Shown: positions 10,603 to 33,518 of the stretch, in pieces
Layout: each line of letters begins with the position of its first letter
Position numbering within the stretch: the stretch's first letter is position 1
DNA from: an uncultured Erysipelotrichaceae bacterium
GTDB lineage: Bacteria > Bacillota_I > Bacilli_A > RFN20 > CAG-826
Assembly (NCBI GenBank): GCA_900315885.1
Contig: ONAT01000014.1
Span: 1-33,633 of the forward strand
DNA: 33,633 nucleotides
Direction of reading: 5' to 3'
Translations under genes and position numbers: made by a program
The notes under the pieces: model-generated
What the model saw: the letters and a program-made list of their open reading frames with translations, nothing else
What the model was told of the DNA's origin: nothing
The model's database searches: none

Positions 10603-10611
10603 GTGTTTAGT

Positions 10612-12018
10612 ATGCCAGAATTACCAGAAGTTGAAACTGTTAAAAGAATTTTAACACCTCTATTAGTTAATAAAACTATTGCAAATGTCGAAGTATTATA
10701 TCCTAAAATGATTTTAAGCCCTGTGGAGGAATTTAAAAAATCTCTACAAAATCAAACTTTTTTAAGTATCAAACGCAAAGGCAAATATTTACTTTTCTAT
10801 CTTACTAATGATTTAGTATTAATTTCTCATCTCCGTATGGAAGGCAAATATATTTTATTAGGTAATAATGAAAGTAAGACAAGTCACGCTCGAGTTATCT
10901 TTAATCTAACTAATAATGAAAGTATTGCTTATGATGATACACGTTGCTTTGGAATTATGAAATTAGTTAAAGAAAAAGATTTAAATAATGAAGAAATGCT
11001 TAATAAATTAGGTCAAGAACCTTTTGATATTCATGATATAACTTATATTAAAAAACGTTTACAAAAATCTAATAATCCTATTAAAGTCTCGATTATGGAT
11101 CAAAGTATTATTTCAGGATTAGGAAATATATACGCTGATGAAGTATTATTTAGATCTAAAATCAATCCTCTCACTCCTTCTAGTAAAGTTAATGATGAAG
11201 ATATTCGTAATATTGTTTCTAATTCAGTTATCGTCTTAAATAAGGCAATTGAATTAGGTGGCTCTACTGTTCGTTCTTATCACGCTGCTCGAGGAGTGGA
11301 CGGAAAATTCCAAAACGAATTATTAGTGTATGGTAAAAAAGATGAATGCTGTCCATCTTGTCATTATGTTTTTAAAAAGATTTACGTTGGAAGGCGAGGC
11401 ACAACATTTTGTCCACACTGTCAAAAATATAAATTTAACACTTGTGTTGTCGGTATTGTTGGACAAATTGCTTCAGGCAAGTCTTTAGCGTTAAATTATT
11501 TTAAAAACAAGGGTTACGAAACAATATCTAGTGATGAAATTGTTCATACCTTATATCAAGATATAAATGTAATTAAAAAGCTTAAGATTCATTTTGCTCG
11601 CGCTATAAAAGATGATATTATCGATCGCAAAATCTTAAAAGATATCATTATTAATGACGCAAAAAAGAAAAAGCAACTAGAGGAAATTATTCATCCACTT
11701 GTGGAAGAAACTATCTTTAATTTTATTAAAAACGCTAAAGGACAGATTGTATTTATTGAAGTGCCATTATTATTTGATGCCCATATGGATTATTTATGTG
11801 ATTACATTATTGGTATTGATGCAAGTAAGGAAGATCAAATTGAACACTTAAAGATGCGCGGGGTAAAAGATATTGACTCTTATCTTACTTTAAATAAGAA
11901 TAATGCTTTTGAAGTTAATCGTAATAAAATAAACTTCATGACGAATAAAAACATATCTAAAGACGAATTATTTAAGGAACTCGATATTTTCCTTAACAAT
12001 ATCAAAAGCCACTTGTAG
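10612..12018 (+). CDS. mutM-coaE: Fused formamidopyrimidine-DNA glycosylase and dephospho-CoA kinase (MutM-CoaE)
   Basis: A single 468-residue frame joins two enzymes that are normally neighbours. Residues 1-274 are MutM, which removes 8-oxoguanine and nicks the DNA. It has the catalytic P2 and E3 (MPELPEVETV), K58, the void-filling triad M76/R111/F113 and a zinc finger C247-x2-C250-x16-C267-x2-C270. Residues 279-468 are CoaE, which phosphorylates dephospho-CoA in the last step of CoA synthesis, with the P-loop GQIASGKS at 284-291. Only a few residues separate them and both halves look complete. The ATG at 10612 is required because MutM uses the proline exposed after Met removal; a TAGGTG site just upstream overlaps the polA stop. 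No sign of an internal stop or frame change. Confidence 0.92.
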   Translation: MPELPEVETVKRILTPLLVNKTIANVEVLYPKMILSPVEEFKKSLQNQTFLSIKRKGKYLLFYLTNDLVLISHLRMEGKYILLGNNESKTSHARVIFNLTNNESIAYDDTRCFGIMKLVKEKDLNNEEMLNKLGQEPFDIHDITYIKKRLQKSNNPIKVSIMDQSIISGLGNIYADEVLFRSKINPLTPSSKVNDEDIRNIVSNSVIVLNKAIELGGSTVRSYHAARGVDGKFQNELLVYGKKDECCPSCHYVFKKIYVGRRGTTFCPHCQKYKFNTCVVGIVGQIASGKSLALNYFKNKGYETISSDEIVHTLYQDINVIKKLKIHFARAIKDDIIDRKILKDIIINDAKKKKQLEEIIHPLVEETIFNFIKNAKGQIVFIEVPLLFDAHMDYLCDYIIGIDASKEDQIEHLKMRGVKDIDSYLTLNKNNAFEVNRNKINFMTNKNISKDELFKELDIFLNNIKSHL

Positions 12019-12031: not shown

Positions 12032-13228
12032 CTATTTTTTTCGCTTTAAATGAATGATATCGTAAGGCTTAAATGTCTCATCTGTTTTAATATTAATGAA
12101 ATGTCCTGCGATTGTATAAGTATCATATTCTTCGCCTTTATAAATAATATTTAAAACTTTAAAAGATTTAGGTAAAGAATTAGGAGATAATTTAATATAT
12201 GTTTGACCTTTAATAATTTTATTTTTTAGTTCAAGTGTAACAAGCTTTTTATTTTTATCATATCCTCGAACTATGCCAATAAATTCTCCTGGGTTTTTAA
12301 ACTCATCTAATAGTTCAAATAACTGCTCTTTAATTGTGACATTTCCGTGTAAGAATCCATGTCCAGTCGAACGATTTTCACCATATGCCATAATCTTATA
12401 ATATTCTTTGTAATTCATTTTTTTATGTGCATAATAGTCATCAATGCATTTACGATAACTAGATATAATTGCGCATAAATAGTTATAAGATTTCATTCTT
12501 CCTTCAATTTTTAAAGAAGAGACATTTGCTTCAATTAAATTAGTAATCTCTCTAATTGTGCATAAATCTTTACTCGATATCGCAAAATATTCATCATTTT
12601 TGTTTATCTTTTTATCTTTATCAAAAAGGAAATATTTCCAGCGACATGAATGGGCACATCCACCTCTATTCGCGTCGCGTAAAGTCATGACATTACTTAA
12701 CATACATCTTCCAGAATATGAAGAGCACATCCCTCCATGAATAAATACTTCAATTTCTAATGGTGATTTATTACAAATATCTTTTATTTCTTTTAAAGAG
12801 CATTCTCTTCCTAATACTACACGTGTGACATTATAGTTTTTATAAAACTCAATAGAGGCTAAATTAAGTGTCGATAGTTGCGTTGATATGTGCATTTCGT
12901 TATGAACATATTTATCATTTAATTCCACTAATTCAAGTGATGATGTGATTATTGCGTCAACGTGACACTTTTTAAGTGCTTTTAAATACTTAAGCGCATT
13001 AGTTTTATCTTCATAATGCATAACCATATTACATGTAACATAAACTTTTTTATTTAAAGCATGCGCAAAATCTGTCGCTTTTTTAATATCTTCTAAAGTA
13101 AAATTTGATGCATGCGAACGAAGTGACATCTCTTTTCCCCCGATATATACCGCATCTGCACCATATAAAAGGGCTAATTTGAGCTTATCTAAGTCTCCAG
13201 CTGGAGCTAATAATTCTATTTTTTTCAT
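12032..13228 (-). CDS. U32-family protein, TrhP2 (YrrO/YegQ)-like tRNA uridine hydroxylase candidate
   Basis: 398-residue U32 protein, formerly called peptidase or collagenase. It starts KIELLAPAGD and carries the U32 signature E160-x-F-x2-GG-M-C168-x6-C175-x-LS, followed by C191 and C195 (RGGCAHSCRWKY) and C223. These cysteines are the likely iron-sulfur ligands. In E. coli TrhP and B. subtilis TrhP1/TrhP2 such proteins make 5-hydroxyuridine at tRNA position 34 and need prephenate. It is the last gene of the aro operon and its ATG overlaps the preceding TGA (ATGA), so it is translationally coupled to the aroA-U32 fusion, whose C-terminal domain resembles TrhP1. A C-terminal beta domain (about 310-395) also fits the YegQ/YrrO architecture. 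Substrate assignment is inference; U32 membership is firm. Confidence 0.85.
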   Translation of the reverse strand: MKKIELLAPAGDLDKLKLALLYGADAVYIGGKEMSLRSHASNFTLEDIKKATDFAHALNKKVYVTCNMVMHYEDKTNALKYLKALKKCHVDAIITSSLELVELNDKYVHNEMHISTQLSTLNLASIEFYKNYNVTRVVLGRECSLKEIKDICNKSPLEIEVFIHGGMCSSYSGRCMLSNVMTLRDANRGGCAHSCRWKYFLFDKDKKINKNDEYFAISSKDLCTIREITNLIEANVSSLKIEGRMKSYNYLCAIISSYRKCIDDYYAHKKMNYKEYYKIMAYGENRSTGHGFLHGNVTIKEQLFELLDEFKNPGEFIGIVRGYDKNKKLVTLELKNKIIKGQTYIKLSPNSLPKSFKVLNIIYKGEEYDTYTIAGHFINIKTDETFKPYDIIHLKRKK

Positions 13229-15312
13229 AAGCTCTTCTCCTTATAAATTGAATCTTGATATTTAAATCCATCTTTAATATTTAATGGTAATTTTGTTATT
13301 TCACTTTTGATATTTTTTCCTTCTAAAGCCAAATAAGTAAGTGAAAGAACTTTTTTAAATATATTTTTAGATATGTAATTACTATCAAGAAAAATATATT
13401 TTGCTTCTAATACATAATCAATATTCTCTAAATACGATAACACATATGGTCTAAATATTACTGAGCCGTATTGGTTTTCATTTATATGATAAAAATCATT
13501 ACGTAAATCTTCTTTTAAAAGTAAGTTATCTCTTTTTATAGGTCTAGAGATATATTCTTCATACATCGATAAAACTTTGCGATACGATTGATACATTGGA
13601 ATATAGCCAAATACTGTAACAAAAGCATCACTATTTTTTAAAGTATAATATGTATCTAATAGAGTTATTTCGTTAGAAATACCAATTGACACATTTGCTT
13701 GCATTTTGTAAGCATCTAATTCACCTTTTTGACAAATCAACGTATAAGGATAAAAAATAATTCTTTCTTCGCTTATTATTGACTTTAAAACATTAACTGC
13801 CCCGATATCTTGCACAATGAAGGAAATATTTAACTTCGCTAATTTCTTAACTTCTTTAACAAATTTATTAAGTTCATTTTGATGAATCATAGCGTTTAAT
13901 AATACAAATACATTTTTATTTGTTTGAGCTTTTTTAATTTCGTGATATGTAAAATATTTAGGTGCAAAAAGCGTATATGTTTCATAACCCATCACATAGC
14001 CATACGCATTTATATTTAATTCATCTAAGTCTTTAATTGATATTAAAACTTTCGGTTTTTTACTATATTTAATATCAATGAAGTGTTTTTCTAAAGTCTT
14101 AAGCATATTTAAATCAGATTTATTCATTGAGGTGTAATTAGTAATAATAAATGAAGATTTGTTAAAAGAATTAAGTAAAATAAGCGCATGAACAATACGA
14201 TGATCATTTGGAGCTTCAATAAATGTATCTGAATTTATAACTGATGGATAAACCACTAAAGTTTCTTCATCTAATTCATAACTCACTCCTAACTTATCAA
14301 ATATTTTCAGCATTTCTTTTAAGCGATTAGATTCTTTATATTTTAAACGTGATATATTTCTAAATACTGATTTATCTTTACAAGAAACCGCCAAAGCAAA
14401 AAGGACAGGAGCTAAATCAATATTATTATCAATATCCACAATTATGCTTGATAATCTTGATTTAAATACTTTAATTTCGGTTGGACTTTTTTTGATTTTG
14501 GCACCCGCTACTTCTAAAATATCAATTAATTCTTCGTCACCTTGCAAATGCGAAAATCTTAAATTTTTAAATGTCGTTTCTTTTTTATTAAGCGCTAAAG
14601 CAATTAATAAACTTGCATTTGAATAATCGCCTTCTACAAGATAATGTGTTCCTCTATATGTTGCATTACCAAGTATTTCTTTCGATGATATCTCTACTCC
14701 AAATGCTTGCATAACTCGTATAGTTAACAAAATATAACTTAGAGACGCTTTATTTAAACTAACATTTAGTATCGAATCACAATTTCTTTTCGGCAAAGCT
14801 AAAAGTAAGCCAGAAATAAATTGTGAAGAAATTTCATTAGAAACACTTATTAGCTCATTTTTAAATTCGCCTTTAAGATAATATTTATTTTTAATTAATT
14901 TAAATTCAATATCTTGTTTTTTAAATAAATCCACATAAGTATCCATTGGACGATTTAATAAATCTTCATTTATAGATACATATAATTCTTTATTTGGATA
15001 TAAAACAACAAATAATGGCAAAATAAATCTTAATAATGTCGCACATGATTTGACATTAATGTGAAATATTTCATTTTTGAGCACTTTTCTTTTATTAATT
15101 AATAAAGTATTGCCTTTAATTTTAATATTCCCTCCTAATTTGGTTAAGCAATCAATTGTTGCTAAAACATCTTCAGAATAATTGAAATTTTCAATTGTTG
15201 AAGGTGTATCACTTAAAAAAGCGCAAAATAAAGCACGGATAGTAATACTTTTACTACCCGACACAAATACTTCTTGATAATCTACTTTTTTATTTGATGT
15301 TGCAATATACAT
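13225..15312 (-). CDS. aroA: EPSP synthase fused to a TrhP1-like U32 domain
   Basis: 695 residues in one frame. Residues 1-415 are 5-enolpyruvylshikimate-3-phosphate synthase (shikimate-3-phosphate + PEP to EPSP): SGSKS at 18-22, LNRPMD at 119-124, the likely catalytic D299 (NIDLAPVL), KESNRLKE at 326-333 and DHRIVHAL at 370-377. Residues about 420-695 are a second domain. LLNAMIHQNELNKFVKEV, QDIGAVNVLK and VFGYIPMYQSYRKVL align by eye with the short U32 proteins of the YrrN/TrhP1 type, which also lack the four-cysteine cluster. It starts one base after the aroF stop and overlaps the TrhP2-like gene by 4 bases. EPSP synthases normally end near residue 430. The fused domain's identity is fairly good by motif, not proven. 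Confidence 0.88.
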   Translation of the reverse strand: MYIATSNKKVDYQEVFVSGSKSITIRALFCAFLSDTPSTIENFNYSEDVLATIDCLTKLGGNIKIKGNTLLINKRKVLKNEIFHINVKSCATLLRFILPLFVVLYPNKELYVSINEDLLNRPMDTYVDLFKKQDIEFKLIKNKYYLKGEFKNELISVSNEISSQFISGLLLALPKRNCDSILNVSLNKASLSYILLTIRVMQAFGVEISSKEILGNATYRGTHYLVEGDYSNASLLIALALNKKETTFKNLRFSHLQGDEELIDILEVAGAKIKKSPTEIKVFKSRLSSIIVDIDNNIDLAPVLFALAVSCKDKSVFRNISRLKYKESNRLKEMLKIFDKLGVSYELDEETLVVYPSVINSDTFIEAPNDHRIVHALILLNSFNKSSFIITNYTSMNKSDLNMLKTLEKHFIDIKYSKKPKVLISIKDLDELNINAYGYVMGYETYTLFAPKYFTYHEIKKAQTNKNVFVLLNAMIHQNELNKFVKEVKKLAKLNISFIVQDIGAVNVLKSIISEERIIFYPYTLICQKGELDAYKMQANVSIGISNEITLLDTYYTLKNSDAFVTVFGYIPMYQSYRKVLSMYEEYISRPIKRDNLLLKEDLRNDFYHINENQYGSVIFRPYVLSYLENIDYVLEAKYIFLDSNYISKNIFKKVLSLTYLALEGKNIKSEITKLPLNIKDGFKYQDSIYKEKSL

Positions 15313-15313
15313 A

Positions 15314-16276
15314 TTATTTTACCATTTCTTTAATTGCTTTTAATTGCTTCATTGAGATTGTTTGTTTAGCGTCAGAAATTGCTTTATTAGGCTTAGTACT
15401 TGTCTCAATAATAAAGCCTGATATATCTATTGCATTCGTAGCTTTTATTAAAGATGGAACAATGTTTCTTAAGCCACTTGAATGTGAAGGGTCAATTAAT
15501 ATTGGTAAATGTGTTAAAGATTTTAAAGCCAAAATATCAATTAAATCTAAGGCATTTCTTCCATAACTTAAAGGTGTACGTATTCCTCTTTCCACTAAAA
15601 TGACATTAAGATTACCATTTTTCAAGATATATTCCGCACTCGATAAAAACTCTTCAATTGTGTTATTAAATCCTCGTTTTAAAAGAATTGGTTTATTAAT
15701 TTTTCCTAATGCTTCAAGTAAAGCGTAGTTTTGCATGTTGCGCGCTCCAACTTGAATAACGTCGACATATTCTAAATATAAAGGCAAATAACTTAAATCT
15801 GTTATTTCTGAAACAATCAACATATTTGTATGCTTTTTAACTTCTTTAAGTATTGCAAAACCTTTTTCTCTAACCCCTTGATATGAGTATGGATTGGTTC
15901 GTGGCTTAAAGATACCAGCACGGAACATATCAATACCTATTTTATTTAAATTGTCTACTTCCACTAATGTATCTTTTAAGTTCTTAATGGCGCAAGGTCC
16001 TGCGATAATTACTTTTTTCTTTCCACCGATTGTAACATTATTAACTTTAATAACTGTATCTTCTTGATGATAAGCACGAAGCACTAATTTTAGATTAAAT
16101 TGTGGTCTAATTTCCACGACTAAAGGAGTTATATCTTTCTTAATTTTTATATAATCAATGTCATCAATTTCAATAACATCAATGCCATCAATTTTATGAA
16201 AATCATAAAATATATCTTTCTTTTCTAATATCTCAAATGCTTGACTTTTGCATCTTCTTTTTAATAAAATCTTCAT
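15314..16276 (-). CDS. aroF: 3-deoxy-7-phosphoheptulonate (DAHP) synthase, type I-beta
   Basis: First committed step of the shikimate pathway: PEP + erythrose 4-phosphate to DAHP. The 320 residues comprise an N-terminal ferredoxin-like domain (1-70) and a TIM barrel. The four metal ligands are kept: C95 (AGPCAI), H265 (DPSHSSG), E291 and D302. Also seen are KPRTNPYSYQG at 125-135, GARN at 177-180 and K200-R201. The usual EVH around the glutamate is ETS here, a mild departure. In Thermotoga-type enzymes the N-terminal domain mediates inhibition by tyrosine or phenylalanine. I use the ATG at 16276, preceded by AGGTGA, rather than the GTG at 16285, which would overlap that site. Confidence 0.93.
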   Translation of the reverse strand: MKILLKRRCKSQAFEILEKKDIFYDFHKIDGIDVIEIDDIDYIKIKKDITPLVVEIRPQFNLKLVLRAYHQEDTVIKVNNVTIGGKKKVIIAGPCAIKNLKDTLVEVDNLNKIGIDMFRAGIFKPRTNPYSYQGVREKGFAILKEVKKHTNMLIVSEITDLSYLPLYLEYVDVIQVGARNMQNYALLEALGKINKPILLKRGFNNTIEEFLSSAEYILKNGNLNVILVERGIRTPLSYGRNALDLIDILALKSLTHLPILIDPSHSSGLRNIVPSLIKATNAIDISGFIIETSTKPNKAISDAKQTISMKQLKAIKEMVK

Positions 16277-16277
16277 C

Positions 16278-16712
16278 TTACTCACCTAATCTTTTTTTCA
16301 TTTCTTCGATTGCAACCTTATATCCCTCAAATCCTTTGCCCATAATTACTTTAAAACTCGCTTCTGCGGTTAATAATACTTGACGATATTTTTCGCGTTT
16401 ACTGACATCGGAAAGATGCACTTCAATTGTTGGAAGGTTAACCGCTTTTAAGGCATCTAAAATAGCAATTGAATAATGTGAATAAGCGCCTGGATTAATA
16501 ATAATTCCATCATATTTACCTAAAGCACTTTGAATCATTTCCACAATTTCGCCTTCATAATTTGAACGACAAACGGTAACTTGTACTTTTTCTTTTTCAG
16601 CGACACGCAAAATATAATTAACTAAATCATTATAAGATTTATTTCCATATATCTCGGGTTCACGAACTCCAAGCATATTCAAATTAACGCCATTAACAAT
16701 CAATAGCTTCAT
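16278..16712 (-). CDS. aroQ: 3-dehydroquinate dehydratase, type II
   Basis: Third step of the pathway, dehydroquinate to dehydroshikimate, as a small dodecamer-forming enzyme. Its 144 residues match the family length. Visible active-site residues are R17, E18 and Y22 (REPEIYG), N73 and H79 (INPGAYSHYS), E97 and the catalytic H99 (IEVHLSD), and R110. The usual SNHEG reads SNYEG, a tolerated position. The ATG lies 20 bases inside the end of the aroE-aroK fusion in another frame, typical of the tight coupling in this operon. Confidence 0.95.
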   Translation of the reverse strand: MKLLIVNGVNLNMLGVREPEIYGNKSYNDLVNYILRVAEKEKVQVTVCRSNYEGEIVEMIQSALGKYDGIIINPGAYSHYSIAILDALKAVNLPTIEVHLSDVSKREKYRQVLLTAEASFKVIMGKGFEGYKVAIEEMKKRLGE

Positions 16713-17931
16713 AATACCCCTCCAAAATGTCTTCTAACGTACGATTTATATTTCCTGAGGTCACAACATAATTGCTATATTGTGCATAATACATTTCTCT
16801 CTTTGCAAGCAATTCTTTGTATTTTGTTTTACAAGAACAAAGTGGTCTATTACGCTTAAATTCGATAAGATCTGCATCTCTTTTTATCCATATAACAACA
16901 CCATTTTCTTTTAAGTAATCAATATTGCTTTTATCTAGAATTGCTCCTCCGCCAGTTGCGATAACTACATTTTGTCTAGCGGATAATTCTTTGATAACTT
17001 CATGTTCGATTTTTCTAAAATATTCTTCACCATATTCTTTAAAAATCTTACCAATTTTCATCTTCGTGCGTTTTTCTATTTCTACATCTACATCAATAAA
17101 TTCTTTCTTTAATTTTTTACTAACTAATTGACCAAACATTGTTTTTCCAGCATAAGGCATACCAATTAAAACAACATTTAATTTCCTTTTCATCATTAAA
17201 TAATGTGAATCTTCGACACAAGGATGTCCTCCATCCATAAATAATTCAGCAGCATCTGCGCCTTGTTTAATTAGCATTCTTAATCCTGGTACAGCTTTTA
17301 TACCTTTTTCTTTAGCTTTAACAAGCAATAAAGTGTTTAAAGGATTATAAATTAAGTCAACAACACACTCTAAATCATAAATTGTATCTAAATTTATAAT
17401 TGGAGCGTCATTGTTATTTGGAGTCATACCATATGGAGAGCAATTGATAATCACATTGATGACTTTGTCGTTTACTTCTTCATAAGTGATAGTATTTTCT
17501 TTTTTAGTTCTACTAACTAAGATAATTTTTTTAGCCTTTAGTTCTTTGAGTAGGTATATCGCTGTTTTTGCAACTCCTCCTGTACCTAAAACTGCCACGG
17601 TTTTATTTTCAATTGTGATTTTGTTGCACTTAAGTAAATATTTTAAGCCAGCATAATCGGTGTTATATCCTATTAATAGCCCTCGCTTATTAATAATAGT
17701 GTTCACAGACTGTGTTGCACTTGCAACACTATCAAGTCTATCTAAATAAGGTATAACAAATTCTTTGTAAGGTTTTGTAACATTTATCCCTACAAATTTT
17801 CTACTCTTAAGAAGCTCTACTAATTCTTCTTCATTTAAAGATAATAATTTATAATTATTATTTCTAAATAATTTGTGTAGTTCTTTAGAAAAACTACTTG
17901 TAACATCTTGACCAACTAATCCGTATTTCAT
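16693..17931 (-). CDS. aroE-aroK: Fused shikimate dehydrogenase and shikimate kinase (AroE-AroK)
   Basis: 412 residues carry two successive pathway steps. Residues 1-248 are NADPH-dependent shikimate dehydrogenase: NVTKPYK at 50-56 with the catalytic K56, NTD at 90-92 with D92, and the nucleotide loop GTGGVA at 116-121. Residues 250-412 are shikimate kinase: P-loop GMPYAGKT at 257-264, D280/D282 (DVDVEIEKR), GGG at 327-329 and the lid RNRPLC at 360-365. The P-loop is atypical (usual GFMGSGKT) but keeps GKT. The order dehydrogenase then kinase follows the reaction order, so the product of the first half is the substrate of the second. The start overlaps the aroC stop as ATGA. Confidence 0.94.
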   Translation of the reverse strand: MKYGLVGQDVTSSFSKELHKLFRNNNYKLLSLNEEELVELLKSRKFVGINVTKPYKEFVIPYLDRLDSVASATQSVNTIINKRGLLIGYNTDYAGLKYLLKCNKITIENKTVAVLGTGGVAKTAIYLLKELKAKKIILVSRTKKENTITYEEVNDKVINVIINCSPYGMTPNNNDAPIINLDTIYDLECVVDLIYNPLNTLLLVKAKEKGIKAVPGLRMLIKQGADAAELFMDGGHPCVEDSHYLMMKRKLNVVLIGMPYAGKTMFGQLVSKKLKKEFIDVDVEIEKRTKMKIGKIFKEYGEEYFRKIEHEVIKELSARQNVVIATGGGAILDKSNIDYLKENGVVIWIKRDADLIEFKRNRPLCSCKTKYKELLAKREMYYAQYSNYVVTSGNINRTLEDILEGYYEAIDC

Positions 17932-18911
17932 TTTAAAAATTCCTCTCCGTATTTATTTTTTAAAGCATCGATTAACACTAACGCCACAACGCTATCAACT
18001 ACAACTTGCCCTCTTATTGCAATGCAAGCATCGTGTCGACCATTAATTTGATAATCAATTACTTTTTTAGTTTTTAAATCTAGACATTTTTGCATTTTGC
18101 CAATTGAAGGTGTTGGTTTAAAAATAGTGTTAATTGCAATATCGTCACCATTTGAATAACCTCCGTTAATTCCTCCGCAATTGTTAGATGTAAATGCAAT
18201 TTTATTGTCTTTTAAAGCAAATTCATCATTAACTTTGCTTCCTAAAGATAACTCATAGTCAAAGCCTAAACCAAATGATACTCCTTTAACTCCTGGAATA
18301 GCAAAGATAGCGTTAGCTAAGTTTCCCTCTAATGTATCAAAGAAAGCTCCTCCCACACCAGGAATAAAGTTTTTCACTACTGTTACAACTTTGGCACCAA
18401 GAGAATCATTATTAGACTTTGCTTCTTTAACAAGTTCAAGTGTTTTATCATCAATTTTTGAAATAATCGTGATATTTTTATTTTTTAAAACGCTAATAGC
18501 GATTGCGCCTAACACCACTATTGGAGCGGTTAATCTACCAGAATAATAACCTCCACCTATTCTTTCGCCGTTTTCTTTGTTAACAAGATAATTTGTATAA
18601 TCCCCATGCGACGGTCTAGCAATATCAAGAGGATATTCTTCATCGTTATAATTTTCATTTTTTATTAGAACAGTTAAAGGATTACCATTTGTTTTACCAT
18701 TTTTAACACCACTAATGAACTCATATTCATCGTTTTCAATGCGTGATGTAGTTAAATTGCCTTTTCCTCTTCTTTTTGCTAATTGGCTAGCTATAAAATT
18801 ATGATCAATTTCAATATTTGCAGGTAAGCCATCAATCGTGGCTCCGATATATTTTGCGTGTGATTCACCAAAAAGAGTTACAACTATACTTTTTCCAAAA
18901 CTTGCGCTCAT
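17928..18911 (-). CDS. aroC: Chorismate synthase
   Basis: Last step to chorismate: removes phosphate from EPSP using reduced FMN as a cofactor. The 327 residues make a short form of the family. Motifs include GESHAKYIG near the N-terminus (usually GESHG), RRGKGNLTTSR, RPSHGDYTNY, GGGYYSGRLTAPI (as in clostridial forms) and GRHDACIAIRG near the C-terminus with the conserved R-H-D. The ATG overlaps the aroB stop by four bases and the TGA overlaps the aroE-aroK start by four bases. Confidence 0.95.
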   Translation of the reverse strand: MSASFGKSIVVTLFGESHAKYIGATIDGLPANIEIDHNFIASQLAKRRGKGNLTTSRIENDEYEFISGVKNGKTNGNPLTVLIKNENYNDEEYPLDIARPSHGDYTNYLVNKENGERIGGGYYSGRLTAPIVVLGAIAISVLKNKNITIISKIDDKTLELVKEAKSNNDSLGAKVVTVVKNFIPGVGGAFFDTLEGNLANAIFAIPGVKGVSFGLGFDYELSLGSKVNDEFALKDNKIAFTSNNCGGINGGYSNGDDIAINTIFKPTPSIGKMQKCLDLKTKKVIDYQINGRHDACIAIRGQVVVDSVVALVLIDALKNKYGEEFLK

Positions 18912-19906
18912 TTATTTGTACCCCTTTCGTAAATTTCTTTTAAATCTTCTATTCTTAAATTCAAAAACGAATAATCTTCAATATCGTTTAAATAAGTAAC
19001 ATTAATACCTTGTTCATTAGCTTTTTTATCTAAATTAAGATAACTAACAAGACTTTCAAAAGGCACATTCTTAACAACTGGTATTTGGTATTTGTGCATA
19101 AATGAAAGTATTAAAGGTTTAACTTTTTCATCACTTAAAACTAATGTTCCATTCATAACTGCTTCACCATGAAACAATTCACCTTTACTATTCAGTTCAA
19201 AAGCGTGTCCAAATGTATGGCCAAAATTTAAAACATGACGTAAAGATGTATCGTTTATGTCTTGACGAACAATTTTATTTTTAGCTTTAAGACATTTTTT
19301 AATAAGTAATTCAAGATTAAGCTTATCTTTATTAAAAATATCTAAGATAGATTTATCAAGTGTTAATCCCATCTTAAAAGCTTCACATAAGCCATTATTG
19401 TAATTGCGTTTATCTAAAGTCTTTAAAGTATCAACATCAATAATTACTAAGCTAGGAAAGTAAATTGTGCCTAATTGATTTTTTGCTTCATAGTAATTTA
19501 CTCCTGTTTTTCCTCCAATTGTTGCATCTAACATTGCTAAAGTTGTCGTAGGAATATTAATCCACTTAATGCCACGTTTAAATAATGAAGCAACAAATCC
19601 TGTAATATCAGAAGTTATACCCCCACCAATAGAAACAATTAAATCATCTTTAGTAAAACCAGCCTTAAACAAAAGACTAAGAATTACTAATGGCTTTTCT
19701 AAAGTCTTATTATTTTCATTTGCGTCAATATAATATAAATAACTATTATCATTGAGATATTTTTTAAACCAATTAGAATCTATTTTGCTATCAATAACAA
19801 AAAATATTTTTTTAGTTTTATCAATATAGTTAAAAAGATTTTGTAATGCGCCTTTTTCAATGATAATTTCATATTTAAAAAGATTACCATTTGCCAAAAA
19901 TCTCAT
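18908..19906 (-). CDS. aroB: 3-dehydroquinate synthase
   Basis: Second pathway step, DAHP to dehydroquinate, NAD+ and zinc dependent; 332 residues. NAD binding at GGGITSD (94-100), then PTTTLAMLDATIGGKTGVN at 119-137 and zinc ligands E175 (GLCEAFK), H230 (NFGHTFGH) and H246 (FHGEAV). I use the ATG at 19906, nine bases after AGGAG; the in-frame TTG at 19915 abuts that site and is unlikely. It is the first gene of the seven-gene minus-strand operon and has a good promoter directly upstream. Confidence 0.94.
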   Translation of the reverse strand: MRFLANGNLFKYEIIIEKGALQNLFNYIDKTKKIFFVIDSKIDSNWFKKYLNDNSYLYYIDANENNKTLEKPLVILSLLFKAGFTKDDLIVSIGGGITSDITGFVASLFKRGIKWINIPTTTLAMLDATIGGKTGVNYYEAKNQLGTIYFPSLVIIDVDTLKTLDKRNYNNGLCEAFKMGLTLDKSILDIFNKDKLNLELLIKKCLKAKNKIVRQDINDTSLRHVLNFGHTFGHAFELNSKGELFHGEAVMNGTLVLSDEKVKPLILSFMHKYQIPVVKNVPFESLVSYLNLDKKANEQGINVTYLNDIEDYSFLNLRIEDLKEIYERGTNK

Positions 19907-19939
19907 AACTCTCAACTCCTATAATAATTAATCATAATT

Positions 19940-20033: not shown

Positions 20034-20312
20034 ATGGAAAAAGATTTAAATTATTATCGTAATGAACTTGATATTATCGATTTAGAAATGCAAGAATTAT
20101 TCAAAAAGCGCATGCAAATTGTTAAGAAAATTGCAAATTATAAAGCACAAAACAATTTATCTACATATGATAGAACACGTGAAAACACACAATTAGAAAA
20201 TATTGTGCAAAACAAGGATAAAATTGTGTCATCTTATTATCCTGAAGTCTTTAAAAGTATCTTAAAAGTTAGTAAAGATTATCAAAAAGATTTAACTAAT
20301 ACTCTTAAATAA
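20034..20312 (+). CDS. Chorismate mutase, AroQ-fold, stand-alone
   Basis: 92-residue all-helical chorismate mutase converting chorismate to prephenate. The catalytic set known from the E. coli domain is present in order: R9, R26, K37, D46, R49, E50 and Q84. No prephenate dehydratase or dehydrogenase domain is attached, so the product is free prephenate. The ATG at 20034 follows AAGGTG; a TTG at 19989 would lie within the -35 hexamer. It is divergent from the aro operon across 127 bases, and its last 21 bases overlap the 3' end of the opposing large U32 gene. Confidence 0.92.
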   Translation: MEKDLNYYRNELDIIDLEMQELFKKRMQIVKKIANYKAQNNLSTYDRTRENTQLENIVQNKDKIVSSYYPEVFKSILKVSKDYQKDLTNTLK

Positions 20313-22598
20313 TAAACCAAAAGATTCATTGCTAGAAACTGAGATATATGCCTTATTTTCTAGCATTTTTAATGTTTTTTCAAAAGTAACAACATCTAAA
20401 TTTCTTAAGTCAACAATCGAAGGATTTCTGATTTTTTTGTAGCAATTTATTAAGCGATTATTTAATAATTCAAAATAGCAATAATTAATCCTAATTCTTC
20501 TTAAAGAATAATTCTTATTATATTCATCTATATAAGAGATTGAATTATTATATTTACACATTTTGCAATCATTTTTATAAATTGTTTTAATAGGGCAATG
20601 TACATAATTCATTAATGTGTTATAACCTAAAGCGTAATAATATAGATTGGGATTTTCTTTTAAGAATGTTTCGTTACTTTCTAATGAAGCAAAAACATAC
20701 TTAATTCCTAAATGATTTAAAAATGACAAAGCATAATTGTTATTGATATTTAAATTGAATCCTGCGATTAATTGTGATTTATTTATAAACGTTAAAGCAT
20801 ATAAGTTATTTGCAATAAGATATACATCATTTAAGTAATTAACAATTTCATTAATGATTTTTAAATCTTCTTTAAATGCAATAATAGGTAAATTTAAGGC
20901 AACTTTCGCATTTATAAATTTTTCTTTAATTTCTTTTACATGCACAATAACTTCTTTATTAAAATATAAAGGTGAATAAATAATTAATCCTTTGTAGTCA
21001 AAAGGAAGTAAATCCAAATTATTATCTTCATTTATAATAAGTGCATCATCTAATGAATCTAAAGAATAAGTAAAATCTAAATCTTTATTAATAGCAACTG
21101 CATTTCTTTTTTCAAATGTTTCAATAATTGCGTTCTCTAGTAATGTCACTGCGCTTCTTCTTGCTTCATTAAGTGCACTTTTAACGATAAAGACTTGATC
21201 ATCATCAACGCTTAAATCTCTTAACACAAAATTTGTATCATTTAGTTTCTCTACTTGCTTTTTGATATCTTCAAATGTGGTAGGTTGATTGATTGCTTTA
21301 TTGCAGACAAAAGAAGATTTATAAGATATTTCTATTTTTTTATAAACTATTTTAATGAGAAGATTTTCATTTTCTTTCGCTACTACTTTAATATCAACCG
21401 GCAATTTCTTAACTTTATTAATTAATTCTTCTTCTTTTTGATAATCAAGTGTCAAATAAATATCTAAACCCTTTTCTTTAATTTTTTGTTTAGTAAAAAT
21501 CTTATAAGTATTATTTCCTCTTTTAATAATATTACCTACACCTAAACTTGCGATCTCTTTGTTCTTCCACATAAACTTTAAGCCATCGCCGGAATGTAAT
21601 TCGTGACTTGAAACAATTTCTAATTCCAGCAAATCATTTTTAAATGGTTTAACAGATGTTAATGTACCAATCTTAATTCCGATATGATTTTGATTAATCA
21701 GATTCATCATTCCCTCTTTATTATGATTTAAATATGCTTCATAAGAAAAGTCACCACGCGAAAAAGCCACTTTTAAAGCTTCAAGGTCATTTTTTGAAGC
21801 ATCTTTTAAACCATTATCAATGATTTTTCGATATGTTGATATAACTACTCCAACATATCCTTCTCTTTTTAATCTTCCTTCAATTTTAAATGATGTAACG
21901 CCAGCATCAACTAAAGTTTTTAATTTATTAATTAAACAAATGTCTTTAGTTGAAAGATAATACGCTTTGTCTTTTAAAGAATCATTATCTTTTACGATAT
22001 ATTGTTTACGGCAATATTGTTGACATAAGCCGCGATTACCACTATTTAAAGATAAGAAACTTGACATGTAACAATTGCCAGAAAAGCCAACACATAACGC
22101 TCCTTGCACAAAGAATTCTATTTCTAAATTAGTGTTATCTCTTATTTCTTTGATATCTTCTAAAGAAGTTTCACGCGATAAAATTACTCTTTTAAAACCT
22201 AGTTGTTCAACAATTTTTGCTCCTTCAAGGTTATGAATTCCCATTTGTGTGGAAGCGTGTAAAACTATGCCTTTATATCTTTTACTTAATAAATAAGCCA
22301 TACCTAAATCTTGAATTATATAGGCATCTACTTTTGCTTCAATACACTTATCCACCATTTTCAAGAAAGCATCTACTTCTTCGTTTTTAATAATGGTATT
22401 AAATGTAAGGTAAATTTTAACATTAAACAAGTGTGCGTAACGAACAACTTCTCTAATGGAATCTACAGTAAAATTACTTGCCTTGCGGCGAGCATTAAAA
22501 TCCGTTAAACCCAAATATATAGCATTTGCTCCATTATTTATGGCAACTTTTAAGCTTTCAAAATTGCCGGCAGGGGCTAGTAATTCAACTTCCTTCAT
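20292..22598 (-). CDS. Large U32/DUF3656 protein, RlhA-like rRNA cytidine hydroxylase candidate
   Basis: 768-residue U32 protein. The N-terminal TIM barrel starts VELLAPAGNF and carries the signature E161-x-F-x2-G-A-L-C169-x6-C176, then C192, C196 (GLCQQYC) and C221, the likely iron-sulfur ligands. Residues about 395-510 match DUF3656, including SALNEARRSAVTLLENAI. The C-terminal part holds a second cysteine set C668, C678, C681 and C707 typical of the long clostridial members. U32 plus DUF3656 is the architecture of E. coli RlhA, which hydroxylates 23S rRNA C2501 and depends on prephenate and iron-sulfur assembly. It converges on the prephenate-forming mutase with overlapping 3' ends. Function is inferred; a peptidase role was the older annotation and has little support. 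Confidence 0.85.
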   Translation of the reverse strand: MKEVELLAPAGNFESLKVAINNGANAIYLGLTDFNARRKASNFTVDSIREVVRYAHLFNVKIYLTFNTIIKNEEVDAFLKMVDKCIEAKVDAYIIQDLGMAYLLSKRYKGIVLHASTQMGIHNLEGAKIVEQLGFKRVILSRETSLEDIKEIRDNTNLEIEFFVQGALCVGFSGNCYMSSFLSLNSGNRGLCQQYCRKQYIVKDNDSLKDKAYYLSTKDICLINKLKTLVDAGVTSFKIEGRLKREGYVGVVISTYRKIIDNGLKDASKNDLEALKVAFSRGDFSYEAYLNHNKEGMMNLINQNHIGIKIGTLTSVKPFKNDLLELEIVSSHELHSGDGLKFMWKNKEIASLGVGNIIKRGNNTYKIFTKQKIKEKGLDIYLTLDYQKEEELINKVKKLPVDIKVVAKENENLLIKIVYKKIEISYKSSFVCNKAINQPTTFEDIKKQVEKLNDTNFVLRDLSVDDDQVFIVKSALNEARRSAVTLLENAIIETFEKRNAVAINKDLDFTYSLDSLDDALIINEDNNLDLLPFDYKGLIIYSPLYFNKEVIVHVKEIKEKFINAKVALNLPIIAFKEDLKIINEIVNYLNDVYLIANNLYALTFINKSQLIAGFNLNINNNYALSFLNHLGIKYVFASLESNETFLKENPNLYYYALGYNTLMNYVHCPIKTIYKNDCKMCKYNNSISYIDEYNKNYSLRRIRINYCYFELLNNRLINCYKKIRNPSIVDLRNLDVVTFEKTLKMLENKAYISVSSNESFGLLFKSIS

Positions 22599-22721: not shown

Positions 22722-23918
22722 ATGAAAAAAATTAAATTTATTTTTCCAGCAATGCTCGCTATGATTCTCGCAGGTTGCAATGGAAACAACAAAAACGCAA
22801 ACAACAATGAAAATGGTAATCAACTAGCCAAAAACGCTTTAATGGAGAATATCGCTGTCGATACTTTATCTTCCGCCGAATTGTTAGATACTCTTGAAGA
22901 AATCTCTGAAGTAACTGACACTACTACTGACGGAAATGAAGAGACACCTACACCAGATATTCCTAGCGAGGGAGAAACAGAAACTCCTGATGAGAATTTA
23001 ACAATTGTAAACAAATATATTCAATTGTTTGAAACGATGACTTCAGAAGATGGATTAGTAATTAATCTCTATGAAAGCGATAGAGAAGATTATAAATACC
23101 TTTTAACTATCAATGCTTCCTTATTAGGCAAAGAAAAACAAGAATTCAAGCTTTATTACAATGAAGTAATTAAAGACATTGATAATGAAGAAACTCCTGA
23201 TGTCGATGGTGAAGAAACAGGCGATACTATAACTGATGAAAAAGAAACTACAGAAGAAGCACCTGAACCAACCATTAAGGAAAAGAAACATCATCACAAA
23301 TTCAAATTTGTTGAATTAGAAGGAATTCTTATTAAAGATGAACAAGAAATCGCTGTCAAAGGAGAAACATTTGTCGATGATGAAGAAACAAAAACTTCTT
23401 TCAAAGCTGAATTAGAAGATGGAAAAGTAGTTAAAATCAAATCTAAGATTTCTAGTGAAGAAAAATCATACGAATACGAATTAAAAGAAAAACATCGCAC
23501 TATTGCTAAAAACAAATTAAAGATTGAAAAAGACGAGGAAGATGGCGAAACGAAACTAAAATTAGAAATCAAAAATAGTGAAGAGAACATCAAATACGAA
23601 ATCAAAAAGATTGTCAAAGACGAACAAGAAATCTACAAGATTCACTACAAAAACAATGCAGAAAAAGGTTATTACATCGCTTATGTTTCTAAAGATGAAG
23701 AAGGTAATACTGTCGTAACTTATGAAACAAAAGATGGAGGAAAACACCACCACGGAGATTATGGCTGGGGATGTGGAGATCATGGACACCATCACGGACA
23801 CGATTTTGAATGGGACTGGGATCAAGATGATGATTTCGATTATGGTGAATTAGATAAAGAATTCGGACAAACTCCTGATGAAATTGATGATATTCTCCAA
23901 AAATTACTTGAAGAATAA
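22722..23918 (+). CDS. Acidic, histidine-rich lipoprotein, probably truncated by an in-frame stop
   Basis: 398-residue lipoprotein of unknown function. The signal sequence ends in LAGC with C19, and AGAGGAG lies eight bases before the ATG. The mature protein is Asn- and Glu-rich, with Thr/Pro/Glu linkers (about 60-95 and 155-185), a Lys/Glu-rich repetitive beta-like region (about 190-330) resembling extended lipoprotein repeats, a histidine cluster (EKKHHHK near 190) and a Gly/His/Trp/Asp-rich tail from about residue 340 (KHHHGDYGWGCGDHGHHHGH). The His/Asp tail suggests metal binding at the cell surface. The frame stays open for 74 more codons after the TAA, with the same composition, so this reading frame is likely the front part of a longer gene. 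Confidence 0.7.
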   Translation: MKKIKFIFPAMLAMILAGCNGNNKNANNNENGNQLAKNALMENIAVDTLSSAELLDTLEEISEVTDTTTDGNEETPTPDIPSEGETETPDENLTIVNKYIQLFETMTSEDGLVINLYESDREDYKYLLTINASLLGKEKQEFKLYYNEVIKDIDNEETPDVDGEETGDTITDEKETTEEAPEPTIKEKKHHHKFKFVELEGILIKDEQEIAVKGETFVDDEETKTSFKAELEDGKVVKIKSKISSEEKSYEYELKEKHRTIAKNKLKIEKDEEDGETKLKLEIKNSEENIKYEIKKIVKDEQEIYKIHYKNNAEKGYYIAYVSKDEEGNTVVTYETKDGGKHHHGDYGWGCGDHGHHHGHDFEWDWDQDDDFDYGELDKEFGQTPDEIDDILQKLLEE

Positions 23919-32559: not shown

Positions 32560-32814
32560 CTATTTTTTATTTAATATTTTTTCACATTGTGGGCATAAGC
32601 CATCTTCATTTAATGGCAAAGGTTTAAAATATTTCTTAATAAAATATACTTCTAAAGAACCATCTACCGTTGTAATTTTATCTGGCATGGAAGGATTGTA
32701 TCCTTTTTCATGGCAACATAAACATTCATTAATCCATTTTTTTAATTTTGGAAATGCATTAATATATTTTTCACCTTCATTACCTTTTTGTCTTTTCACT
32801 ATAATTTGCCCCAT
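32560..32814 (-). CDS. Small cysteine-rich protein, candidate immunity protein for the RHS tip
   Basis: 84 residues with two cysteine groups, ECLCCHEKGY (CxC plus CC near 31-34) and LCPQC near the C-terminus, likely a zinc site. Between them is a conserved-looking stretch EVYFIKKYFKPLPLNEDG. It starts inside the last 16 bases of the RHS-tip gene, so the two are translated together. A small gene directly after a polymorphic toxin tip is usually its immunity gene; that role is inferred from position alone. The fold is not recognised. Confidence 0.6.
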   Translation of the reverse strand: MGQIIVKRQKGNEGEKYINAFPKLKKWINECLCCHEKGYNPSMPDKITTVDGSLEVYFIKKYFKPLPLNEDGLCPQCEKILNKK

Positions 32815-33518
32815 TTCTTTAAAATTTCTTTTAACAATTTAATTAGTTTCCTTAAATTATCATGAGTATTATAAGGATGCTTTTGTATTTCGTTATGTAA
32901 TCTTCGCCACAAATCTTTGTTTTCAATGCCTAATTGTTTCATTGCTTCCGCCCATTGCTGATTTTGGTGCTTATTATTAGGTAAGCCACCTTTTGCAAAC
33001 ATATAAATAGCGCCTAATAATCCTGCAGCGCCTAACACTTCTGTCCCAGTAACAGTTATTGCAATCGAACCAGTAACACCAAACATCAAGGCACCACCAG
33101 AATTTATCCATCCAAAAGTTGGAACACTTACAGAAAAACTCATTCCAGCAAAAACCCCTAATCCTGCACCAATCGCCCCTCCTAATATTGTTGCACCTAA
33201 ATAATCATACCAAGCAACACTTCCATTAAAGATTTGACCGTCATCTTGATAATCAATATATGCAACAGTTCCAAATCCAATTAAAGCTCCTATAATCAAG
33301 CCTATTAAAATAGCACTATGACTAGAAGGATCATAATTATTAACTGGATCATTCCCACAATAGCAGTAAAGATTCAATCCATTAAGTTCTTCTGCTTCTA
33401 AATAATTGCATTTGTCAGGGCTTATGAATCTTCTAAATTCAGGACTATAGTATCTTGACATACAATAATAAAGTTTTGTCTCTTCATCATAGTAATATCC
33501 TTTATATAATATGTGCAT
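32799..33518 (-). CDS. Orphan RHS-repeat C-terminal tip with unrecognised toxin end
   Basis: 239 codons. Residues 1-64 are the end of an RHS/YD-repeat core: YKGYYYDEETKLYYCMSRYY, RRFISPD, NGLNLYCYCGNDPVN and DP. This is followed by a glycine-rich hydrophobic part (about 68-176, several possible membrane segments) and a basic C-terminal domain from about 180 with several histidines (H184, H208, H214, H219). In RHS proteins the part after the DP motif is a variable toxin. The toxin type here is not recognised. The ATG at 33518 has no ribosome site, and RHS-like sequence continues upstream in frame, so this is most likely a displaced tip cassette rather than a complete gene. Confidence 0.6.
   Translation of the reverse strand: MHILYKGYYYDEETKLYYCMSRYYSPEFRRFISPDKCNYLEAEELNGLNLYCYCGNDPVNNYDPSSHSAILIGLIIGALIGFGTVAYIDYQDDGQIFNGSVAWYDYLGATILGGAIGAGLGVFAGMSFSVSVPTFGWINSGGALMFGVTGSIAITVTGTEVLGAAGLLGAIYMFAKGGLPNNKHQNQQWAEAMKQLGIENKDLWRRLHNEIQKHPYNTHDNLRKLIKLLKEILKKWGKL

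Follow-up and report, generated by a model that had tools for sequence, protein, structure and literature searches.

An apparently undescribed AroA-YrrN fusion in a shikimate operon of gut Erysipelotrichaceae and its possible part in prephenate-dependent RNA hydroxylation

Contig ONAT01000014.1 of an uncultured Erysipelotrichaceae bacterium (GenBank assembly GCA_900315885.1; GTDB lineage Bacteria; Bacillota_I; Bacilli_A; RFN20; CAG-826), analysed here along all of its 33,633 nucleotides and called the window below, carries a gene in which 5-enolpyruvylshikimate-3-phosphate (EPSP) synthase (AroA) is joined to a U32 domain of the YrrN type. Both yrrN and yrrO are needed in Bacillus subtilis for prephenate-dependent formation of 5-hydroxyuridine at tRNA position 34 (ho5U34) (PMC6599085). 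TrhP1 denotes YrrN and TrhP2 denotes YrrO in two papers, and the text of PMC6599085 has the reverse; we use the names YrrN and YrrO throughout. The fusion gene belongs to a minus-strand operon (19915 to 12032) that reads aroB, aroC, aroE-aroK, aroQ, the gene for 3-deoxy-D-arabino-heptulosonate 7-phosphate (DAHP) synthase, aroA-yrrN and yrrO, with neighbouring genes overlapping or no more than ~20 bases apart (Table 1). The same gene order is found in the other three species examined of the genus, a group of small-genome gut bacteria. Next to the operon lies a chorismate mutase gene, which adjoins the gene of an RlhA-like protein. Given this complete aro set and the chorismate mutase, the window encodes the first shikimate step through prephenate, and both kinds of U32 RNA hydroxylase gene (YrrN/YrrO and RlhA-like) occur in it.

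Table 1. Positions of the fusion gene, its two parts and other genes in the window
Feature	Position	Strand	Remarks
aroA-yrrN fusion	13225..15312	minus	695 aa; evidence from Pfam, conservation and models
AroA part of fusion	15312-14068		residues ~1-415
U32 YrrN-type domain of fusion	14061-13228		residues ~418-695
yrrO-like (TrhP-family) U32 gene	12032..13228	minus	398 aa; putative catalytic partner
DAHP synthase	15314..16285	minus	B. subtilis type with N-terminal extension; first pathway step
aroQ, type II 3-dehydroquinase	16278..16712	minus	
aroE-aroK fusion	16693..17931	minus	shikimate dehydrogenase + shikimate kinase
aroC, chorismate synthase	17928..18911	minus	327 aa
aroB, 3-dehydroquinate synthase	18908..19915	minus	
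Chorismate mutase	20034..20312	plus	prephenate-forming; CM_2 at 20055-20288; divergent from operon
RlhA-like U32 protein with DUF3656	20292..22598	minus	768 aa; likely second prephenate user
MutM-CoaE fusion	10603-12018	plus	471 aa
Putative lipoprotein	22722-23918	plus	acidic, His-rich
Rhs-core-like C-terminal fragment	32799-33518	minus	by contig end

The fusion gene is a single uninterrupted open reading frame of 695 codons with both domains in one frame. A preliminary description of this DNA, made from the letters alone, took residues 1-415 to be a complete AroA. This is borne out by a match to PF00275 (EPSP_synthase) at residues 14-398 (E 5.1e-58, well over the cut-off), by the predicted fold, and by the motifs GSKS (residue 19), RP (121-122), SSQF (162), NIDLAP (297), KESNR (326), NDHR (369) and NKSDL (397), whose catalytic roles we presume from general knowledge of the Escherichia coli enzyme. 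TIGR01356 scored the AroA half at 240.6 bits (E 2.6e-71), which is under its 287-bit cut-off. In a model of the full-length protein (predicted local distance difference test (pLDDT) 91.3, predicted template modelling score (pTM) 0.82), AroA ends near residue 416 and the C-terminal barrel begins at 421, with no long linker, and the top matches of this model in the PDB are E. coli EPSP synthases (TM-score 0.85-0.87 by target length). By match, fold and motifs the N-terminal half is thus an EPSP synthase, with EPSP-making activity predicted; like others of its kind it has the complete domain and fold and the motifs GSKS, SSQF, KESNR and NDHR, and it differs from them in carrying a U32 domain and in one residue, Ala91 (window 15040-15042), the counterpart of Gly96 in E. 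coli EPSP synthase. The Ala, within an SCAT/SSAT motif, is common to all four species of the genus, and Gly is found in genome G012, where aroA and yrrN are separate genes. The glyphosate-insensitive E. coli mutant 1mi4 has just this Gly96-to-Ala change, and by this likeness the fused EPSP synthase may be naturally glyphosate-tolerant.

For the C-terminal half, earlier read as a U32 domain of the TrhP1/YrrN type (residues about 420-695), PF01136 (Peptidase_U32) matched residues 482-638 of the whole fusion protein slightly under the cut-off (E 3.1e-4). The isolated domain passes (23.1 bits against a cut-off of 22.4), and Peptidase_U32 is matched by 28 of the 29 aligned homologues of the fused domain, so that the U32 assignment is independent of one weak match. 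The first scan of the genome contigs with the single U32 domain gave no match. According to an AlphaFold model made with the 29 homologues (pLDDT 93.5, pTM 0.91), the fold of this domain is a U32-type triosephosphate isomerase (TIM) barrel rather than an unrelated one. Foldseek with this model returned generic TIM barrels alone, none at E <0.001; when its candidates were re-aligned by VIA-align, the U32 protein Mk0906 (5d88) ranked best (Z 14.6, 3.1 A, 190 residues), with unrelated barrels a small margin behind (Z 13.8). A YrrN profile had no match among the PDB sequences. Because the structural margin is small, the family assignment is carried by the sequence evidence. No in-frame start codon occurs between fusion residues 404 and 439, which speaks against two products by internal initiation and makes a separate U32 product unlikely.

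Both halves are known and their combination appears undescribed, as the preliminary description had supposed: no paper on an AroA-U32 fusion was found in the searchable, partial literature. AroA is joined to another enzyme in the AroA-cytidylate kinase PRK11860, in the TyrA-AroA protein PRK14806 and in AROM as well; in these the partners are not U32 RNA-hydroxylase subunits, and the match to the present protein is via the AroA half alone. The fusion was found in every close relative, that is, in four of the four genus species examined (52-55% identity), in frames of 697-709 codons free of internal stops. The genomes are metagenome-assembled, which might suggest an artefact of assembly or binning; such an artefact is refuted by the presence of the same fusion in the four species (contigs JAFLUZ010000011.1, JAFLVA010000014.1 and CANQQL010000006.1 among them), and we give it practically no weight. 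Between species the U32 half is the better conserved, with pairwise identities of 59-76% as compared with 48-63% for the AroA half. Outside the genus, homologues of the YrrN type occur across the class at E <1e-40. None of the other YrrN-like matches listed (from samples of 395 class and 392 phylum genomes) has the AroA fusion: their frames are mostly of 254-337 codons, with a few near 410 or 505, and are too short to contain an AroA. The long YrrN-like frames among the matches listed are those of the fusion genus itself.

The residues that mark the YrrN family are kept in the fused copies. In fusion numbering, D502, T524, R578 and E601 are invariant in 29 YrrN-like proteins, and G569 and R604 are nearly so. 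No Cys is conserved among these 29 proteins, which argues that YrrN is not itself an Fe-S catalytic subunit. The expected partner is encoded directly after the fusion gene, with a 4-bp overlap, by a YrrO-like gene, so that the TrhP1-TrhP2 order proposed for this locus is indeed kept; yrrN is likewise followed by yrrO in those unfused homologues that were looked at closely. E160, C168, C175, C191 and C195 of the YrrO-like protein are kept and are invariant in 22 YrrO-like proteins, and the spacing of E160, C168 and C175 is that of E162, C170 and C177 of E. coli TrhP, which are essential there (PMC6599085). One could suppose that the fused C-terminal domain no longer takes part in tRNA hydroxylation and acts instead as a regulator of AroA or a prephenate sensor, and its low direct Pfam score and the lack of a conserved Cys would fit. 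The retention of all invariant YrrN residues and the intact yrrO directly after the fusion speak against this supposition, which we regard as very improbable.

U32 oxidases are often oligomers, as in the UbiU-UbiV and TrhP1-TrhP2 heterodimers (PMC11574389). The predicted YrrN-YrrO pair resembles UbiU/UbiV in that two U32 proteins of low identity act jointly in oxygen-independent hydroxylation, and differs in that UbiU/UbiV act on a quinone precursor and hold Fe-S in both subunits, whereas YrrN has no conserved Cys. It is also like TrhP1/TrhP2 of B. subtilis: a short YrrN-like U32 subunit is directly followed by a YrrO-like U32 subunit with the Glu/Cys pattern kept, and a prephenate supply is present. 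Unlike in B. subtilis, YrrN here makes up the C-terminal part of a protein that starts with EPSP synthase, encoded inside a shikimate operon, and no protein of the TrmR (YrrM) family was found in the genus.

In genome G012 the genes aroC, aroE-K, aroQ, aroF, aroA, yrrN and yrrO are consecutive and separate, and an ATGA is shared by the overlapping aroA and yrrN. In a YrrN tree (midpoint-rooted, with long branches), the fused clade groups with genome G175 and not with the aroA-linked yrrN of G012, so that the G012 gene order is unsupported as a direct ancestor of the fusion. Around the yrrN of G175 no aro gene occurs in the 8 kb examined, and its aroC is on a different contig. The yrrN-aroA linkage may therefore be of more than one origin, a tentative reading in view of the long branches. 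A serious rival to any functional reading of the fusion itself is a neutral origin, in which two genes overlapping by 4 bp in a tightly packed operon lost a stop codon and the halves stayed independent with nothing gained, the operon link being possibly real all the same. Overlapping or adjacent genes of the genus have been fused elsewhere (MutM-CoaE and AroE-AroK), aroA and yrrN overlap by ATGA in G012, and EPSP is not a U32 substrate. Nonetheless, the fusion has been kept in four species at ~54% identity, and the separate placement of the linked yrrN of G012 makes the aroA linkage look repeated. We hold a neutral origin to be possible but less likely than not.

What the prephenate is made for was approached through its outlets. 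Among the four genus genomes, no match was obtained for prephenate dehydrogenase (PF02153), prephenate dehydratase (PF00800) or chorismate-binding enzymes of the TrpE/PabB/MenF/EntC kind (PF00425), each of which was matched in 14 of 14 controls, nor for MqnA (PF02621), matched in four control genomes. The search was by profile for the best-known families, with TrhO, UbiC and CmoA outside it. At this profile sensitivity the U32 RNA hydroxylases are the sole known prephenate users detected in the genus. Prephenate is required for tRNA hydroxylation of the TrhP type and restores ho5U34 in E. coli mutants, and E. coli RlhA needs it as well (PMC6599085). In anaerobic U32-dependent ubiquinone synthesis, prephenate is the source of the hydroxyl oxygen, direct proof of the reaction lacking (PMC11574389).

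The same pattern recurs across the order. In eight further genomes (G012, G035, G038, G042, G045, G047, G050 and G056) AroC occurs with neither prephenate dehydrogenase nor prephenate dehydratase, and all eight have the YrrN-YrrO pair; weak, sub-threshold MqnA-like fragments were seen in G035 and G047. Altogether, the pair is present in 11 of 11 panel genomes with AroC and without prephenate dehydrogenase, two of them with a shortened YrrN. These short forms, in G056 and G042, were found by inspection upstream of yrrO (profile E 3e-58 and 2e-24, respectively; the YrrN of G056 was in the profile, so that the value for G042 alone is independent). When 196 genomes of the order were scored, 23 had both AroC and YrrN, five YrrN alone, eight AroC alone and 160 neither (Fisher p 1e-18 per genome, uncorrected for relatedness, and 0.0014 per genus, where relatedness counts for less). 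Of the genomes tested for chorismate mutase, each of the 32 with AroC has it, and so does none of the five that are YrrN-positive and AroC-negative. It might be argued that seven enzymes are costly for a trace RNA modification, and that an unrecognised chorismate or prephenate compound, or excretion to neighbours, is the principal outlet, with RNA hydroxylation a side use; that only the best-known outlet families were covered leaves room for this. The placement of U32 genes within the operon and next to it, one being part of a fusion, and the retention of the YrrN-YrrO pair in all genomes without other outlets make such an outlet unlikely in our judgement.

Taken together, the product of the fusion gene and YrrO probably form a tRNA U34 hydroxylase fed with prephenate from the same operon. 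The N-terminal half would act as the EPSP synthase of shikimate step six, and the fused YrrN half would pair with YrrO as an oxygen-independent, prephenate-dependent hydroxylase making 5-hydroxyuridine at tRNA position 34. The operon and the adjacent chorismate mutase would convert central metabolites to prephenate, whose only apparent outlets in the genus are the U32 RNA hydroxylases, namely YrrN/YrrO and, for rRNA, the RlhA-like protein. The latter shares the U32 domain, DUF3656 and the E...C...C motif with RlhA, the prephenate-dependent hydroxylase of 23S rRNA C2501; unlike the fusion it is a separate protein, and its rRNA target is predicted. The preliminary description saw in the fusion a "Rosetta stone" link between prephenate supply and tRNA hydroxylation. 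Genome-wide evidence upholds this as a link to the pathway and not as a direct hand-over: EPSP is not a U32 substrate, and channelling it from AroA to the U32 domain is chemically unlikely, since chorismate synthase and chorismate mutase stand between EPSP and prephenate. Because the product of AroA is thus two steps short of prephenate, the fusion most likely keeps pathway and hydroxylase at a set ratio and in one place, and would tie AroA production to the hydroxylase.

The best reading of these observations is that the anaerobic hydroxylation of RNA is the main or sole purpose for which prephenate is produced. In its full form, to which we incline only slightly, the genus and several other lineages of the order would keep the shikimate pathway and chorismate mutase solely for this prephenate and import their aromatic amino acids, and the fusion would be a mark of the re-dedication. 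This apparent dedication of a pathway, as a hypothesis with good comparative support, would be a stronger novelty than the fusion. Several points weigh against it. The genomes are draft assemblies, 89-97% complete, so that absences of single genes are no proof. AroC and chorismate mutase were undetected in five genomes with the YrrN-YrrO pair (loci L033/L107 in G048, L045/L108 in G053, L047 in G034, L049 in G043 and L053 in G046), and the pair is thus not always accompanied by its own prephenate supply; for these genomes one would have to assume another oxygen donor, an import of prephenate, or sequence that is missing. Family members that lack AroC likewise carry RlhA-like U32 frames (750-800 aa), although E. 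coli RlhA needs prephenate. The other gene fusions of the genus suggest that this one is perhaps partly incidental. Finally, no methyltransferase of the TrmR family (PF01596) was found in the genus, which leaves the usual end product of B. subtilis, 5-methoxyuridine, unsupported; the final nucleoside may be 5-hydroxyuridine itself. A gene of 224-229 aa upstream of yrrN in G066 and G070, considered as TrmR, has motifs like those of TrmN6-type methyltransferases and was not counted.

If the dedication is true, the shikimate pathway has here been detached from the synthesis of aromatic amino acids, folate and quinones, and RNA modification alone can maintain a pathway of seven steps in a genome that is otherwise reduced. 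The dedication would support prephenate as a real co-substrate of U32 RNA hydroxylases, a point still open, and would provide natural systems for studying U32 prephenate use free of competing PheA/TyrA activity. It would also bear on how glyphosate could affect gut bacteria without aromatic amino-acid synthesis, with the caveat that the fused EPSP synthase carries the Ala of glyphosate-insensitive enzymes.

Other features of the window were observed in passing. The aroC product is ~30-40 residues shorter than most relatives; throughout the genus, positions ~147-168 of the Pfam model fall in a gap. An AroE-AroK fusion is present in every shikimate operon read from the order. Beyond yrrO lies the fusion of MutM/Fpg (formamidopyrimidine-DNA glycosylase) with CoaE (dephospho-CoA kinase), which is kept in all four genus species. 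The Rhs-core-like fragment has a weak, sub-threshold prePAAR/Rhs match. The putative lipoprotein, which has no Pfam match, bears HHHKFKF and GHHHGHDFEWDWDQDDD near its C-terminus, and by this composition perhaps binds metal.

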